This document shows, in pieces, positions 4,609-62,260 of a stretch of 64,000 nucleotides of DNA (positions are counted from its first letter, which is position 1; each line of letters opens with the position of its first letter). The notes beneath the pieces are model-generated. The model saw nothing but the letters and a program-made list of their open reading frames with translations. It ran no database searches and was not told the origin of the DNA. The stretch spans positions 1,906,796 to 1,970,795 of the forward strand of contig CP053450.1 of assembly GCA_013285505.1 (NCBI GenBank), written 5' to 3'. The position numbers and the translations under genes were made by a program. The stretch is from Planctomycetota bacterium (GTDB taxonomy: Bacteria > Planctomycetota > Phycisphaerae > Phycisphaerales > UBA1924).

Positions 4609-5556
4609 ATGCACCGCTCACTCGCAAGGACCGCCCTCACCGCCCTCGCCCTCTCCGCCGTAGCCACAACCGCGGCCAGCGCCGACGACCTCTACCTCGC
4701 CGGAAACTTCGGCCAGATCTGGCACCTCGACACCGACACCGGCGTCGTCGACAACCCCGTCTCCTGCGGCGGCAACGTCGAGGGCCTCGTCCTCCAGGGG
4801 CGTGACGTCCTCGCCGCCAGCTCCGACGGCACCGTCTACCGCATCGACCTCGACACCGGCTTCTTCAAGAGCACCTTCCCCGTCGTCGGCAGCCCCCTCT
4901 CGATGACCCGCTGGGGCAACACCCTCTACATCACCGACGAGATCGGCGGCATCCAGTGGTACCAGGCCGACGACGGCTCCCTCATCGACACCTACTACAT
5001 CAACGATCCGCAGCAGGCCTCCGTCCTCTTCGGCGGCACCATCTTCACCGGCAGCTGGAGCACCTTCGTCTACAAGTCCCCCATCGGCGGCATGGACTTC
5101 CAGTTCTTCACCGCCTGCGGCGGCACCGTCAACTCCATGACCACCGACGGCACCGACCTGCTCATCGGCTCCCGCGAGGGCACCATCTACGTCTTCGACG
5201 CCGTCACCGGCGGCTACCGCGTCACCTACCCCGTCGCCTCCGACTGCGTCGGCATGGCCTACACCGACGGCAGCCTCTTCATCGCCGGCTCCGACGGCAT
5301 CGTCCACCGCATGAACCTCGCCAACGGCAACATCGAACGCACCTACGACACCGGACTCGACCTCACCGCCATGGCCGGAGCCGACGCCTGCGCCGCCGAC
5401 TTCAACACCGACGGCGAGATCTCCATCCTCGACTTCCTCGCCTTCCTCAACGCCTGGAACGACCAGGACAACACCGCCGACATGGACGGCAACGGCGTCA
5501 TCAACACCCAGGACTTCCTCGTCTTCCTCAACGCCTTCACCGCCGGCTGCGAATGA
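4609..5556 (+). CDS. Secreted beta-propeller-like protein with GC-type dockerin tail
   Basis: 315 residues. Signal peptide 1-24 (ends ASA). Residues 25-260 consist of repeats of the type LYLAGNFGQIWHLDTDTG and LLIGSREGTIYVFDAVTGG, as in PQQ/WD-like propellers. Residues 261-315 form two EF-hand-like calcium loops (DFNTDGEISILD, DMDGNGVINTQD), each followed by a helix FLAFLNAW or FLVFLNAF, and the protein ends AGCE. AAGGAG at 4598-4603 supports the start. The tail matches three other proteins in this window and is likely a surface-sorting or assembly tag. Ligand unknown. Confidence 0.8.
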   Translation: MHRSLARTALTALALSAVATTAASADDLYLAGNFGQIWHLDTDTGVVDNPVSCGGNVEGLVLQGRDVLAASSDGTVYRIDLDTGFFKSTFPVVGSPLSMTRWGNTLYITDEIGGIQWYQADDGSLIDTYYINDPQQASVLFGGTIFTGSWSTFVYKSPIGGMDFQFFTACGGTVNSMTTDGTDLLIGSREGTIYVFDAVTGGYRVTYPVASDCVGMAYTDGSLFIAGSDGIVHRMNLANGNIERTYDTGLDLTAMAGADACAADFNTDGEISILDFLAFLNAWNDQDNTADMDGNGVINTQDFLVFLNAFTAGCE

Positions 5557-56616: not shown

Positions 56617-56660
56617 CTGAAGTACGGCCCTGGGTAAACGGCAGGGTGAGGGAGGAACCG

Positions 56661-57095
56661 ATGCGGCGACGAACAGCGAATCCGGGATTCACGCTCGTGG
56701 AGATCCTGATCGTGGTGGTGATTCTCGGCATCCTCGCGGCGATCGTGGTGCCGCAGTACGCCGGTGCCACCGGCGACGCATCGGAGAAAACGGCCTACCA
56801 CGAGGTGCAGCGGCTCCGCAAGGCCGTCGAGGTCTACCTGATCCGCCACGGCAACGGGCTGCCCGATGTCGAGGAGGGCGACCAGACCTGGGGCAGCCTG
56901 ATCACGGCGGGCGATTACCTCAAGACCGCCCCGATGAACCCGTACGTCGGGGGCGAGAACGCCGGCTACATCGTGCTCGGGGACGCGCCCGACGACGCCT
57001 ACCAGACCGACTACGGCTGGATCTTCGACCCGATCACCGGTGACATCTGGGCCGGCGGGTTCGACGCGGATGACAACCCGCTTCCCAAGGAATGA
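56661..57095 (+). CDS. Second GspG-like pseudopilin
   Basis: 144 residues. GAGGGAGGA (56649-56656) favours this ATG over the GTG at 56646. Prepilin signal NPG-FTLVEILIVVV with the standard Gly; the helix is almost identical to that of the first pilin, but the globular part differs (EVYLIRHGNGLPDVEEGDQT, YLKTAPMNPYVGG, GWIFDPITGDIWAG). The pair probably arose by duplication. Confidence 0.88.
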   Translation: MRRRTANPGFTLVEILIVVVILGILAAIVVPQYAGATGDASEKTAYHEVQRLRKAVEVYLIRHGNGLPDVEEGDQTWGSLITAGDYLKTAPMNPYVGGENAGYIVLGDAPDDAYQTDYGWIFDPITGDIWAGGFDADDNPLPKE

Positions 57096-57124
57096 GCACC
57101 CGGGAGCGGCGGGGTGAAGGAGCC

Positions 57125-57707
57125 ATGATGCGGCAGCGGAACAGTCACAACTCGGTTGGCACACGCGGGGCGTACACGCTCGTGGAGCTGCTCCTGGTCA
57201 TCCTGATCATGGGCATCGCCGGGGCGCTGGTCATCCCGCAGACCAGCCAGGCGCACGTGCTCCGCATCCACGCGGCGGTGCGGACGCTGGTCGCGGACAT
57301 CAGCTACGCCCAGACCGACGCGGCTGGCCTACCAGCAGCGCCGGGCGGTGATCTTTGACACCGACGAGAACACCTACACCGTCGCCGAGGTCACGGTGTC
57401 GTCCGGGGGCGACGTGACGTACACGCCGCTGTTCCTGGCGGGCGGGCCGGACGGCGATCACACCGTGGACTTCGACGGGCGGTCGTTCGACGGGGCCTCG
57501 CTGCGCGCGGCGGACTTCGACGGCAACGCGATCCTGATCTTCGACGAGATCGGCGCTCCGGTGCTGGACGCGGCGACCGACGTCAGCGCCGGCCTCGGCA
57601 CGATTTACATCGAGGGCTCGATGTCGGTGTTCCGGATCGAGGTGTTGCCGTACACCGGCCAGGTCCGTGTGACCGAGGTTGACGAGGTTCCGGTCGAGGA
57701 CGAGTAG
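57125..57707 (+). CDS. GspH-like minor pseudopilin (one frameshift)
   Basis: Repaired length 193 residues. GAAGGAG precedes ATGATG; an earlier ATG at 57092 overlaps the previous stop and is the alternative. Signal RGA-YTLVELLLVILIMG. A surplus G near 57322 (GCGGCTGG for GCGCTGG) separates ISYAQTDA from LAYQQRRAVIFDTDENTY. The long beta-rich C-terminal domain (FRIEVLPYTGQVRV) is like GspH/FimT minor pseudopilins, which prime the pilus tip. Confidence 0.82.
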
Positions 57708-58247: not shown

Positions 58248-60929
58248 ATGAATATGAAGAACGATCGTCAGAACATCCGGGGTTCACGTCCGACAAGAAT
58301 CGCCCTGACCGCGGCGGCACTGGCCTGCATGGCCGGCGCCCCCGCCGGCCTGGCCCAGTCGAGCGTCGACGCGGAGGACAGCGCGGGCGGCCTCGGCTCG
58401 CTCATGTCGTTCCTTTCCGGCGGCGGCCAGGACGCCAACGGGCAGCCGGGCGCAGTGCAGGAGGGTTCGGCCGACGACTTCCGCACCGACGGGCTCTACT
58501 ACGACGAGAACATGACCGTCGAGCTGCACGTGCAGGACGAAGAGCTGACCAACGTGCTCCAGATGCTGTCGCTGCAGAGCGAGCGGAACATCGTGGCCAG
58601 CAACGACGTCTCGGCGCGGGTGACCGCCAACCTCTACGGCGTGACGTTCCACGAGGCCCTTGACGCCATCCTGCACGTCAACGGCTACGGCTACATCGAG
58701 AAGGGCAACTTCATCTACGTCTACCCGGCCGAGGTGCTCGAGCAGATCGAGCAGGCCTCGCGTCAGGTGGAGGGGCGGGTGTTCAACCTGAACTTCATCA
58801 GCTCCGTTGACGCCGCGGACTTCGTCACACCGCTCCTGAGTGAGTCGGGCGAGATCAAGACCAACGGCGAGACCGCGGCCTGGTCCGACCCGACCTCGCC
58901 GACCGGCAACGAGGAGTTCGCCTCGCTCTCGACGCTGATCGTCTACGACTACCCCGAGAACATCGAGGCCGTGTCGCGCATGCTCACCTCGCTCGACACG
59001 CGCCCTGCGCAGATCCTCGTCGAGGCGACGATCGTGCAGACGACGCTGACCGAGGCCAACGCGTTCGGCGTGGATTTCTCGATCATCGCCGACTTTGACT
59101 ACGCCGACTTCGCCAATCCCCTCGGTGCGGTTGACGCGCTGCTCGACGGGAACGACGGGTCGTCCCGCGTGCCCGCCGACGGGGGCGCGTCCGCGATCGT
59201 CGGCACGCCCGGCAACACCACCGGCCCCGGCACGTTCAAGGCCGGCATCGTCAGCAACGACGTGAGCGTGTTCCTCAAGCTGCTCAACGAGATCACCAGC
59301 ACGACCATCATCTCGAACCCGAAGGTCGTGACGCTGAACCGTCAGCCCGGCCGGGTGCTTGTCGGGCGCAAGGTCGGCTATCTCCAGACCACCTCGACCC
59401 AGACCTCAAGCACCCAGAGCGTGGAGTTCCTCGATACCGGTACCCAGCTCAACTTCCGCCCCTTTGTCACCGGCGAGGGCATCATCCGGATGGAGCTCAA
59501 GCCGCAGGTTTCGGAGGCGGCGCTCCGCTCGACGACCGACGTCGTCGGCTCGGTGGTGACCATCCCCGACGAGATCACCAACGAGCTGGTGGCCAACGTG
59601 ATGGTGCCCGACGGCCACACGATCGTGCTCGGCGGCCTGTTCCGCGAGGCGACCACGACCACCCGCCGTCAGGTGCCCGTGCTCGGTGACATCCCGATCC
59701 TTGGGTCCGCCTTCCGCGGCCACGACGACGATATTGACCGCCAGGAGATTATCTTCATGATCACGCCCTCGATCGTCAGCGATCAGGTGCTGGTCGATCA
59801 GGGCCTCCGTGGCGAGGACAGCGTCGAGCGCGTCCGCGCCGGTGCTCGCGAGGGCACGCTGCCCTTCTCGCAGACCCGCCAGGCGGCGCAGCTCGTCGTC
59901 GAGGCCGAACACCTCGCGGCCGCGGGCAAGACCGACGCGGCGCTGCACTCAGTCCGCCGGGCCCTGCACTTGGTGCCCGCCAACACCGACGCCATCGCAC
60001 TCCGCGAGAAGCTGGTGAACGAGCGGGACATCTGGCCCAGCGCGAGTGTGCTCGAGAACATCATCGAGGGTGATGCCGAGGAGACCCGGCACAACATCCT
60101 CCAGCACGGCTGGCGCGGCGACATCTCCCAGCGAGAGGTCGAGGCCGAAGAGACCTTCGCCGAGGTTGAGAACCAGAACCACAACACCTCCGGCGCGCAG
60201 AACAGCAACCGGGCGGCCAACATCAACCGAAACCGCGCCTCCAAGGCCGGGCAGTTTGGCGGAGAAGCCGCCGCCCGCTCCAACAGCACCCAGAGCCAGG
60301 ACCGCAACCACTTCGGGGACGCGCCCGCGTTCGCGGCGGCCCCCGACCTGGGGACGTGGTGGACGAGCCCCGAGTTTGACGTCTTCATGACCAACTGGGC
60401 GGTCGCCGAGGCCATCGAAGAGAACCGCGAGTTTGAGGCCAAGGACCGTTGGTGGGTCGAGCCCCAGTTCATCGGATTCGCCCAGGCGATCGACACGGAC
60501 ATCGAGTCGGGCAGCGACACGTCCTGGATCGGCAGCCCCGAGTTCGACGCCTTCATGACCGCGTGGGCGGTCGGGATCGCCGAGGAGAACGGGGAGTCGG
60601 CCGGCTCGATCAACACCTGGTGGACGAGCGACCACTTCCAGAGCTTCGCGGTGGCGTTCTCCTCGCCGAAGGGCGTCGAGAGCGACAACGAGTGGTGGGC
60701 GAGCGCCGAGTTCAAGGAGTTCATGCGGGTCTGGTCGATCGAGTCCGCCCGCGAGCAGGGGCGCGAGCCGGCCGACTTCGACGAGTGGTTCCAGAGCGCC
60801 GAGTTCAAGGCCTTCATGCAGGGCTACGAATCGGCGGTGGACCAGGCTGTCGCGAGCGGAGAGTTGGAAAACGGGCGTTCCACGTCCGGGACGACTTACA
60901 CACAAGTTCCGACCGATATCGAAGACTGA
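58248..60929 (+). CDS. Secretin (GspD/PilQ family) with novel C-terminal repeats
   Basis: 893 residues. Signal peptide 1-36. ELHVQDEELTNVLQMLSLQS (about 92-150) is the STN/N0-like domain; then an N1-like domain and the secretin channel from about 270, with the signature VPVLGDIPILGSAF near 476-490 and EIIFMITPSIV. Residues 540-590 are TPR-like helices; 640-690 are Asn/Gln/Ser-rich. Residues 704-871 are three repeats of exactly 56 residues. The channel should form the outer membrane pore for the pseudopilus encoded upstream. ATPase, platform protein and prepilin peptidase are not in the window. Confidence 0.93.
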   Translation: MNMKNDRQNIRGSRPTRIALTAAALACMAGAPAGLAQSSVDAEDSAGGLGSLMSFLSGGGQDANGQPGAVQEGSADDFRTDGLYYDENMTVELHVQDEELTNVLQMLSLQSERNIVASNDVSARVTANLYGVTFHEALDAILHVNGYGYIEKGNFIYVYPAEVLEQIEQASRQVEGRVFNLNFISSVDAADFVTPLLSESGEIKTNGETAAWSDPTSPTGNEEFASLSTLIVYDYPENIEAVSRMLTSLDTRPAQILVEATIVQTTLTEANAFGVDFSIIADFDYADFANPLGAVDALLDGNDGSSRVPADGGASAIVGTPGNTTGPGTFKAGIVSNDVSVFLKLLNEITSTTIISNPKVVTLNRQPGRVLVGRKVGYLQTTSTQTSSTQSVEFLDTGTQLNFRPFVTGEGIIRMELKPQVSEAALRSTTDVVGSVVTIPDEITNELVANVMVPDGHTIVLGGLFREATTTTRRQVPVLGDIPILGSAFRGHDDDIDRQEIIFMITPSIVSDQVLVDQGLRGEDSVERVRAGAREGTLPFSQTRQAAQLVVEAEHLAAAGKTDAALHSVRRALHLVPANTDAIALREKLVNERDIWPSASVLENIIEGDAEETRHNILQHGWRGDISQREVEAEETFAEVENQNHNTSGAQNSNRAANINRNRASKAGQFGGEAAARSNSTQSQDRNHFGDAPAFAAAPDLGTWWTSPEFDVFMTNWAVAEAIEENREFEAKDRWWVEPQFIGFAQAIDTDIESGSDTSWIGSPEFDAFMTAWAVGIAEENGESAGSINTWWTSDHFQSFAVAFSSPKGVESDNEWWASAEFKEFMRVWSIESAREQGREPADFDEWFQSAEFKAFMQGYESAVDQAVASGELENGRSTSGTTYTQVPTDIED
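60357..60860 (+). repeat. Three 56-residue repeats at the secretin C-terminus
   Basis: Trp-led half-repeats start at residues 704, 735, 760, 791, 816 and 847: spacing 31, 25, 31, 25, 31. First halves: TWWTSPEFDVFMTNWA, SWIGSPEFDAFMTAWA, EWWASAEFKEFMRVWS. Second halves: RWWVEPQFIGFAQAI, TWWTSDHFQSFAVAF, EWFQSAEFKAFMQGY. Consensus xWWxSxEFxxFMxxW. Confidence 0.92.
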
Positions 60930-60967
60930 GTTCAACCCGGACTCTGACACGCCGATAAGTGGGCCAC

Positions 60968-61001
60968 GGGCCCGCCCGTTTGACGGGCGGGCCCGCTTTC
61001 C
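60968..61001 (+). terminator. Terminator of the secretin gene
   Basis: Perfect 11-bp stem GGGCCCGCCCG / CGGGCGGGCCC with TTTGA loop, followed by GCTTTCCTT. Confidence 0.85.
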
Positions 61002-61033
61002 TTGGTTCACACGCGATGCACAGGAGCACCACC

Positions 61034-62260
61034 ATGCACGGTCCCACCCCGGTTCGACGCCTTGTGTTCTCGGTCTTTGCGGTCGGTCTCGCGGTCGGTT
61101 CTCTCGCGGGCTGCGGCGGCGGCGGGGCGTACACCAGACAGACGTCCCTCGATCACCAGTCCAAGATGGACATCATGAAGAGCGCGACCGAGTACGACAT
61201 GTCCCGGCAGGCGTACTACGCCGGCGACCTGAAAAAGGCATTGGACGGCGTGGAGCGCTCGATCGCCATCAACGACCAGGTCGCCAAGACGCACGTGCTG
61301 CGCGGCCGGATCCTGCTGGAGCTGAGCGAGCTCGACGGGGCGCTCGACGCGCTGCACACCGCCGAAGCGCTCGACCCCGAGAGCGTCGATGCGCAGTACT
61401 ACCTCGGCATGGCCTACGAGCGTCTCAACGAGTACGAGACGTCGATCGAGCACTACCAGGCCGCGGCCGAGATGAAGCCGGAGAAGGCGCAGTACATCGT
61501 GGCGGTCGCCGAGGTCATGATCGACGCGGGCCGGGTAGACGAGGCCGAGAGCTACCTCAGCAGCCGCCGCGCGAGGTTCGACCACAACGCGGGGGTGCGG
61601 CAGACGCTGGGCCACATCGCGTTGATGCAGGGCAACCCGACCAAGGCGCTGACCATGTTCTCCGAGGCGCGGATCCTCGCGCCCGAGGACATGGAGATCC
61701 TCGAAGACCTCGTGCAGACGCAGATCGCGCTCGGCCGGTACGGCGACGCATCGGGCGGCCTCGCAAAGCTGTTGAGCGACGAAGACTTTGCCGAGCAGCG
61801 GCGCGACCTCCGTCATGTGTACGGGCGTTGCCTGATCGAACTCGGCCGCTACATCGAGGCCCGGAACGTGTATCTCGCCCTGACCGAGGACGAGGAGGGC
61901 GGCTCGGATGTTGACGCCTGGATCGGGCTCGGGAACGTGTCGTGCATCATCAAGGACCCCTACCGGCTCCGGACCGCGGCAGGCCGGGTGATGGCCCTCG
62001 AGCCCAACCGTGAGGAGGGGTACCTGCTCCGGTCGATCTGGCACCGCCGCCGGGGCGAGAGCAACGACGCCCTGCGGTGGCTCGAGATCGCGGCCGAGCG
62101 TGCGGGCGAATCGCAGGCGATCTACACGATGGCCGGGCTCGTGCTGGCCGACCTCGGGCGCGACGACGACGCGCGGAAGGTCTTCTCCTCGGTGTTCCCC
62201 GCCGGCGAGAGCGACGAGTTCGCGGGCGTCTCCGAGAGCGATCTGATCACAGAAAACTGA
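61034..62260 (+). CDS. TPR lipoprotein (PilF-like)
   Basis: 408 residues. AGGAG at 61022-61026 favours this ATG over the one at 61016. Lipobox LAGC with Cys27. About nine TPRs follow (AYYAGDLKKALDGVERSIAI, AQYYLGMAYERLNEYETSIE, DALRWLEIAAERAGESQAIY). PilF/PilW-type TPR lipoproteins help assemble secretins, so the position behind the secretin gene suggests a pilotin role; it is longer than typical PilF (about 250). Separated from the secretin by a terminator. Confidence 0.85.
   Translation: MHGPTPVRRLVFSVFAVGLAVGSLAGCGGGGAYTRQTSLDHQSKMDIMKSATEYDMSRQAYYAGDLKKALDGVERSIAINDQVAKTHVLRGRILLELSELDGALDALHTAEALDPESVDAQYYLGMAYERLNEYETSIEHYQAAAEMKPEKAQYIVAVAEVMIDAGRVDEAESYLSSRRARFDHNAGVRQTLGHIALMQGNPTKALTMFSEARILAPEDMEILEDLVQTQIALGRYGDASGGLAKLLSDEDFAEQRRDLRHVYGRCLIELGRYIEARNVYLALTEDEEGGSDVDAWIGLGNVSCIIKDPYRLRTAAGRVMALEPNREEGYLLRSIWHRRRGESNDALRWLEIAAERAGESQAIYTMAGLVLADLGRDDDARKVFSSVFPAGESDEFAGVSESDLITEN

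Follow-up and report, generated by a model that had tools for sequence, protein, structure and literature searches.

Within the window, the whole 64,000-nucleotide stretch of planctomycete DNA analysed here, a forward-strand gene (58248–60929; translation of 58248–60926, 893 residues) encodes a protein that by its sequence is a PilQ/GspD-like secretin, predicted to form a multimeric outer-membrane pore. The domains, the repeats, the lipoprotein gene and the GspG-like pseudopilin gene described below lie on the same strand. The channel domain (residues 347–510, 59286–59777) matches the Pfam family Secretin (PF00263, 5.5e-39) and clears its curated cut-off (133.9 vs. 27.5 bits). Two N-terminal domains score slightly below theirs, in the order and position expected for a secretin: a putative N0/STN domain (residues 95–161, 58530–58730; PF07660, 8e-06, score 26.0 vs. 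a cut-off of 28.4; PF21305, 0.013) and a putative N1-type Secretin_N domain (residues 177–255, 58776–59012; PF03958, 2.8e-05, score 24.7 vs. 28.2). The N-domains and the channel thus follow the canonical order in Pfam, and the Trp-rich tail reported in an earlier note on this DNA does lie C-terminal to them, its repeats starting at residue 704. Against NCBIfam, the secretin reaches 215.3 bits with PilQ (TIGR02515, curated cut-off 284.35) and 191.6 bits with GspD (TIGR02517, curated cut-off 351.35), below the threshold in both cases.

Between the channel and the repeats, three elements can be distinguished. The first is a family-conserved TPR-like helical segment (residues 539–592, 59862–60023), delineated by AlphaFold2 helices, a weak PF13429 match to residues 544–584 and its presence in all orthologues inspected; its pLDDT block means of 71–88 are better than those of the repeat array. 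It is followed by a WPxRSxLExI helix (residues 596–610, 60033–60077), which recurs at this position in most of the family, and by a low-complexity linker (residues 611–703, 60078–60356) with low identity to the nearest species and pLDDT below 50. Beyond the repeats, the protein ends in the peptide TYTQVPTDIED (residues 883–893, 60894–60926), a candidate lipoprotein-docking tip. The next gene (60959–62260, likely start 61016) encodes a lipoprotein with the lipobox SLAGC and matches to several TPR families of Pfam (TPR_2, 7.1e-23), a candidate pilotin.

Upstream of the secretin lies a gene for a GspG-like pseudopilin (56646–57095; NCBIfam GspG, 54 bits, below the cut-off), the globular domain of which is copied into the secretin tails of other genera. 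A third, GspH-like pseudopilin (57120–57707) is split near 57330, its prepilin signal being encoded in one frame and its C-terminal part in another, which may reflect a real frameshift or an assembly error; in the congener L002 this gene is a single open frame (4819–5421). The genome of the window (G000:C1) contains 9 secretin-domain matches and 19 matches to the T2SSE ATPase family, pointing to several secretion or pilus systems, and a run of pseudopilin-like ORFs is located about 15 kb past the window end (L193:13336–19539).

The tail itself contains six Trp-rich half-repeats, delimited by their spacing and by profile matches: R1 (31 aa, 60357–60449, 2.1e-10), R2 (25 aa, 60450–60524, 1.5e-7), R3 (31 aa, 60525–60617, 5.4e-11), R4 (25 aa, 60618–60692, 5.4e-9), R5 (31 aa, 60693–60785, 9.1e-11) and the last copy, R6 (60786–60860, 1.4e-7). 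They begin at residues 704, 735, 760, 791, 816 and 847, and the resulting steps of 31/25/31/25/31 bear out the alternation of 31 and 25 residues described before. The three exact 56-residue repeats of the same note are exact in spacing but not in sequence: pairwise comparison of the units gives 22, 17 and 15 identities (27–39%), summing to 54, while 20,000 shuffles of these residues never gave more than 29. Self-similarity of the tail is highest at lag 56 and next at 112, of which only two full 56-residue periods are measurable, the third unit having no following repeat to close it. Since the strict 31/25 alternation fails in two congeners, the actual unit is a single half-repeat, some 25–31 residues long. 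DNA identity among the 56-residue units is 52–54%, and Tandem Repeats Finder reported nothing for the repeat DNA; the duplications are hence old rather than a fresh DNA duplication.

Tryptophan makes up 7.7% of the repeat stretch vs. 0.4% of the remaining secretin. Each half-repeat is laid out as a Trp-Trp turn, an S/T-P-E N-cap and then an F..F(M)..W face. The proposed pattern xWWxSxEFxxFMxxW describes the odd copies well and the even ones loosely. AlphaFold2, run with few sequences, predicts one helix per half-repeat, each following a short turn around the Trp pair, in line with the helical nature suggested earlier, albeit at low model confidence (pLDDT about 40–69, mostly 50–69, in the array; pTM 0.46 for the tail alone), because of which the packing of the repeats cannot be read from the model.

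By sequence comparison, the half-repeat is a new family that finds no match in the searched libraries, while the protein bearing it is still a secretin. The Trp-rich tail has no Pfam match above cut-off; a sequence search of the PDB gave a best hit of 0.047, which is chance-like, and a Foldseek search of PDB folds with the low-confidence tail model returned nothing better than E 2.3, i.e., no match. Neither Pfam nor the sequences of solved structures supply a described family to which the tail could convincingly be assigned. Among the open-licence papers searched, none was found to describe this repeat family.

The repeat is also confined to a single genus. A half-repeat profile built from 25 rows recovered only the secretin in its own genome (next match E 0.7, an unrelated protein). 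Samples covering 151 genomes from the order and 294 from the phylum yielded no match at E ≤ 0.001 beyond the genus; among 150 family genomes the sole extra-generic matches, at E 0.03, were unrelated proteins, and plasmid records gave no match. The order, phylum and family samples overlap. Three marginal candidates (L139, L143, L144) were dismissed as chance hits in unrelated-looking proteins, which we take to be an aromatic hydroxylase, a glucanotransferase and a subtilisin-like protease with a dockerin-like end. A possible single-copy ancestor in a segment of another genome (G028/L004, GGFFWSTPVFRQYL) was likewise rejected, scoring 3.7 bits, below the 9.0 of the best shuffled tails.

Inside the genus, the array is present in all four genomes examined, with six copies in three species and seven in G003. 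The spacing 31/25/31/25/31 is limited to the window species and one sister species; G002 has steps of 31, 25, 56, 32 and 32, the 56-residue one possibly harbouring a degenerate copy, and G003 has steps of 31, 25, 38, 33, 31 and 30. All four species agree in the first two steps, and in each the last copy lies 46–48 residues from the stop. For the earlier note, a repeat missing from homologous secretins as a sign of recent local expansion would have spoken against its reading: the repeat is indeed absent from orthologues outside the genus, but a recent expansion is not supported, because the copies are strongly diverged and common to four species.

Across the family, the secretin core was found in 119 of 120 genomes, and the tail was surveyed at the 71 loci where the whole secretin gene could be read. 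The order there is channel, TPR-like segment, usually the WPxRSxLExI helix, and then a hypervariable tail whose length varies between 21 and 606 residues, with a median of 239. For 45 of the 71 tails no relative is detectable among the other tails at 1e-5; tail content differs between genera, and Trp repeats fill it in one genus only. Long low-complexity secretin tails occur in other families of the order as well. A further module, FFPMHGGLVWIAIPRGMF, is common to the tails of G026, G035, G094 and G135 (L123, L124, L109 and L104, respectively), and the tail of G017 (L127:3461–4534) contains a second N0/STN-like domain (PF21305, 29.6 bits vs. a cut-off of 27). Separately, open frames of about 3,600–4,800 residues in family genomes such as G035, G064, G083 and G111 match the secretin core (query residues 132–416, E 1e-24 to 1e-28), suggesting giant secretin-like proteins.

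In some genera the tail is occupied by part of a pseudopilin. Matches to the GspG-like pseudopilin of the window at E ≤ 1e-4 were obtained with seven tails, of which six reach 1e-19 to 5e-25 with 37–46% identity and that of G062 is weaker, and the tail of G030 has two pseudopilin domains matching its own pseudopilin (4e-13 and 5e-12). A GspG-like globular domain without the membrane helix was seen in the tails L078, L087, L107, L127, L121, L130, L100 and L097 (genomes G062, G021, G008, G017, G073, G030, G076 and G032, in this order). By homology search, the free pseudopilin gene is retained in all eight genomes with a tail copy, so that the copy is an addition; replacement of the free pseudopilin was rejected on the same ground.

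The lipoprotein gene is linked to the secretin at most of the loci surveyed. It directly adjoins the secretin in 68 of the 71 loci; the other three comprise one truncated region and two loci without a match. The lipobox cysteine is present in 68/68 aligned proteins, and residues R98, E102, E135 and R136, near-invariant among them, presumably occupy groove-facing TPR positions. PilW and Tgl are among the NCBIfam matches of the lipoprotein, all below cut-off (PilW, TIGR02521: 58.3 bits vs. 154). The TPR protein of the window has a net charge of −22 and offers no obvious fit to an acidic ligand.

As to the other possible partner in docking, 37 of the 71 family C-termini carry the motif [FYLIV][STA]x[VAFM][PD] roughly 10 residues ahead of the stop, against a mean of 3.8 and a maximum of 12 in shuffles. 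This enrichment is only suggestive, as the pattern was picked after the sequences had been seen and the genomes are related, and about half of the family either lacks the motif or has a weak form of it. Similar C-termini are found in two other families (AVTEVPTGTE and YAEVPTDDESNDPIK). A link between the tip and the C-terminus VPVEDE of the third pseudopilin was considered and rejected, the congener L002 ending in VDGLPGA.

Known secretins continue beyond the channel with an S-domain that is periplasmic and lies outside the barrel, and the GspD tail exits the barrel near the membrane. We propose, with a probability of about 0.4, that this genus has filled a fast-evolving periplasmic secretin tail with Trp repeats, the tip of the tail binding the lipoprotein and the helices forming a collar. 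By analogy with other secretins, the tail would leave the barrel at the S-domain position and hang in the periplasm round the channel, where its tip, or else the WP helix, could be bound by the TPR lipoprotein much as the RcpA tip is by TadD. For pilotin binding, the conserved WPxRSxLE helix is just as good a candidate. Six Trp helices per subunit in a ring of some 12–15 subunits might pack against one another, against adjacent subunits or against the TPR segments, and the resulting helical collar would stabilise the assembled pore and multiply docking sites. Since other genera do without the repeats, the basic machine does not require them. The pilotin docking suggested in the earlier note fits the adjoining TPR lipoprotein gene, the binding being postulated from related systems.

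According to the main rival, the tail would be under loose constraint and serve to space the docking tip from the channel; lineages would fill it with anything that happens to arise, the Trp repeats being mild structural filler with no specific partner. We consider this rather unlikely, although the variation of tail length and content between genera, with most tails lacking a relative, agrees with it. So do substitution rates: in comparison with the nearest species (G001), identity is 90% in the core, 60% in the repeats and 57% in the linker, with dN/dS of 0.105, 0.37 and 0.38, so that the repeats evolve like the low-complexity linker. A dN/dS of 0.37 in this nearest pair nevertheless means that the repeats are constrained, though fast; towards the more distant congeners it amounts to 0.73–0.99, where the copy-to-copy alignment is uncertain. 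What argues against a mere spacer is that tryptophan and phenylalanine positions are nearly all kept while other residues drift: 28 of 29 are still aromatic in G001 vs. 76 of 140 other positions identical (Fisher 4e-6), and 28 of 29 vs. 51 of 139 in G003 (Fisher 6e-10), a slightly generous comparison that scores aromatic exchange as retention and demands identity elsewhere. At least six copies and a nearly constant distance from the last repeat to the stop, preserved in four species, point in the same direction.

Less probable again is a membrane role, in which the Trp helices, placed at the inner face of the outer membrane, would anchor or brace the ring of secretin subunits in the bilayer and take over some of the anchoring normally provided by the S-domain or a lipoprotein. 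Helices at membrane interfaces typically show WW turns and aromatic faces, and an exit near the membrane, as in GspD, would bring the tail to the right place. However, the helices carry a net charge of 0 to −4 and are thus neutral to acidic; only about a quarter of the copies have a hydrophobic moment above that of shuffles (p < 0.05), and with such a minority we rejected strongly amphipathic membrane helices.

We also regard it as improbable, and slightly more so, that the repeats control traffic into the channel by docking, on the periplasmic side, secretion substrates or components of the pilus or pseudopilus. The presence of a GspG-like domain at the same tail position in seven or eight other genera suggests that this site may meet pseudopilin partners, but no sequence similarity is seen between the repeats and pseudopilins. 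Substrates, in turn, pass inside the channel, whereas the tail of known secretins is outside it; as known secretins have a periplasmic S-domain at this position, the surface structure or substrate-docking array envisaged earlier is unlikely. A planctomycete sorting or cell-surface element, for which one could cite that no known domain family matches the repeats, is very improbable and largely refuted by their restriction to one protein of one genus, no other protein of the same genome being hit by the profile.

Our preferred reading, a genus-specific filling of the periplasmic tail, may be an instance of a broader pattern, which we advance more tentatively and think doubtful in its full extent: the family tail could be a docking platform rebuilt in each genus, sometimes from parts of its own machine (pseudopilin and N0 domains) and here as a collar of single Trp helices with its tip tied to a TPR lipoprotein. 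The usual view of a secretin is that of a conservative pore ending in a short C-terminal anchor. In this one family, the universal pore has a long tail largely swapped from genus to genus, the Trp repeats and captured pseudopilin domains included, while the pore proper and the adjoining lipoprotein gene show little change. This offers a natural series for probing the role of the S-domain end of secretins and the tolerance of pilotin docking to change.

Among known systems, PilQ of type IVa pili, with its partners PilF/PilW/Tgl, is the best-scoring secretin family for the protein described here, and PilW/Tgl appear among the matches of its lipoprotein, yet both remain below cut-off; to our knowledge, no Trp-rich tail exists in PilQ. 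In type II secretins, the S-domain following the channel binds the pilotin and touches the neighbouring subunit (PMC6532946). GspD/EpsD with PulS/AspS resemble our case in having a stretch after the channel domain, the C-terminal helix of which binds a lipoprotein; their S-domain, though, is short (~60 residues), with an Ala-Phe motif and no repeats (PMC6532946), and PulS/AspS pilotins are not TPR proteins, unlike the lipoprotein here. The Tad secretin RcpA binds, through its last residues, to the groove of the TPR lipoprotein TadD, and loss of these residues abolishes secretin assembly (PMC10499894). The likeness lies in the combination of a secretin having a disordered C-terminal tail with a TPR lipoprotein partner (PMC10499894), and the docking site at the extreme C-terminus of RcpA finds a parallel in the recurring short C-terminal peptide. 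The difference is one of scale and content: the RcpA S-domain comprises about 35 residues without repeats, whereas more than 280 residues follow the WP helix here and include six Trp-rich helices.
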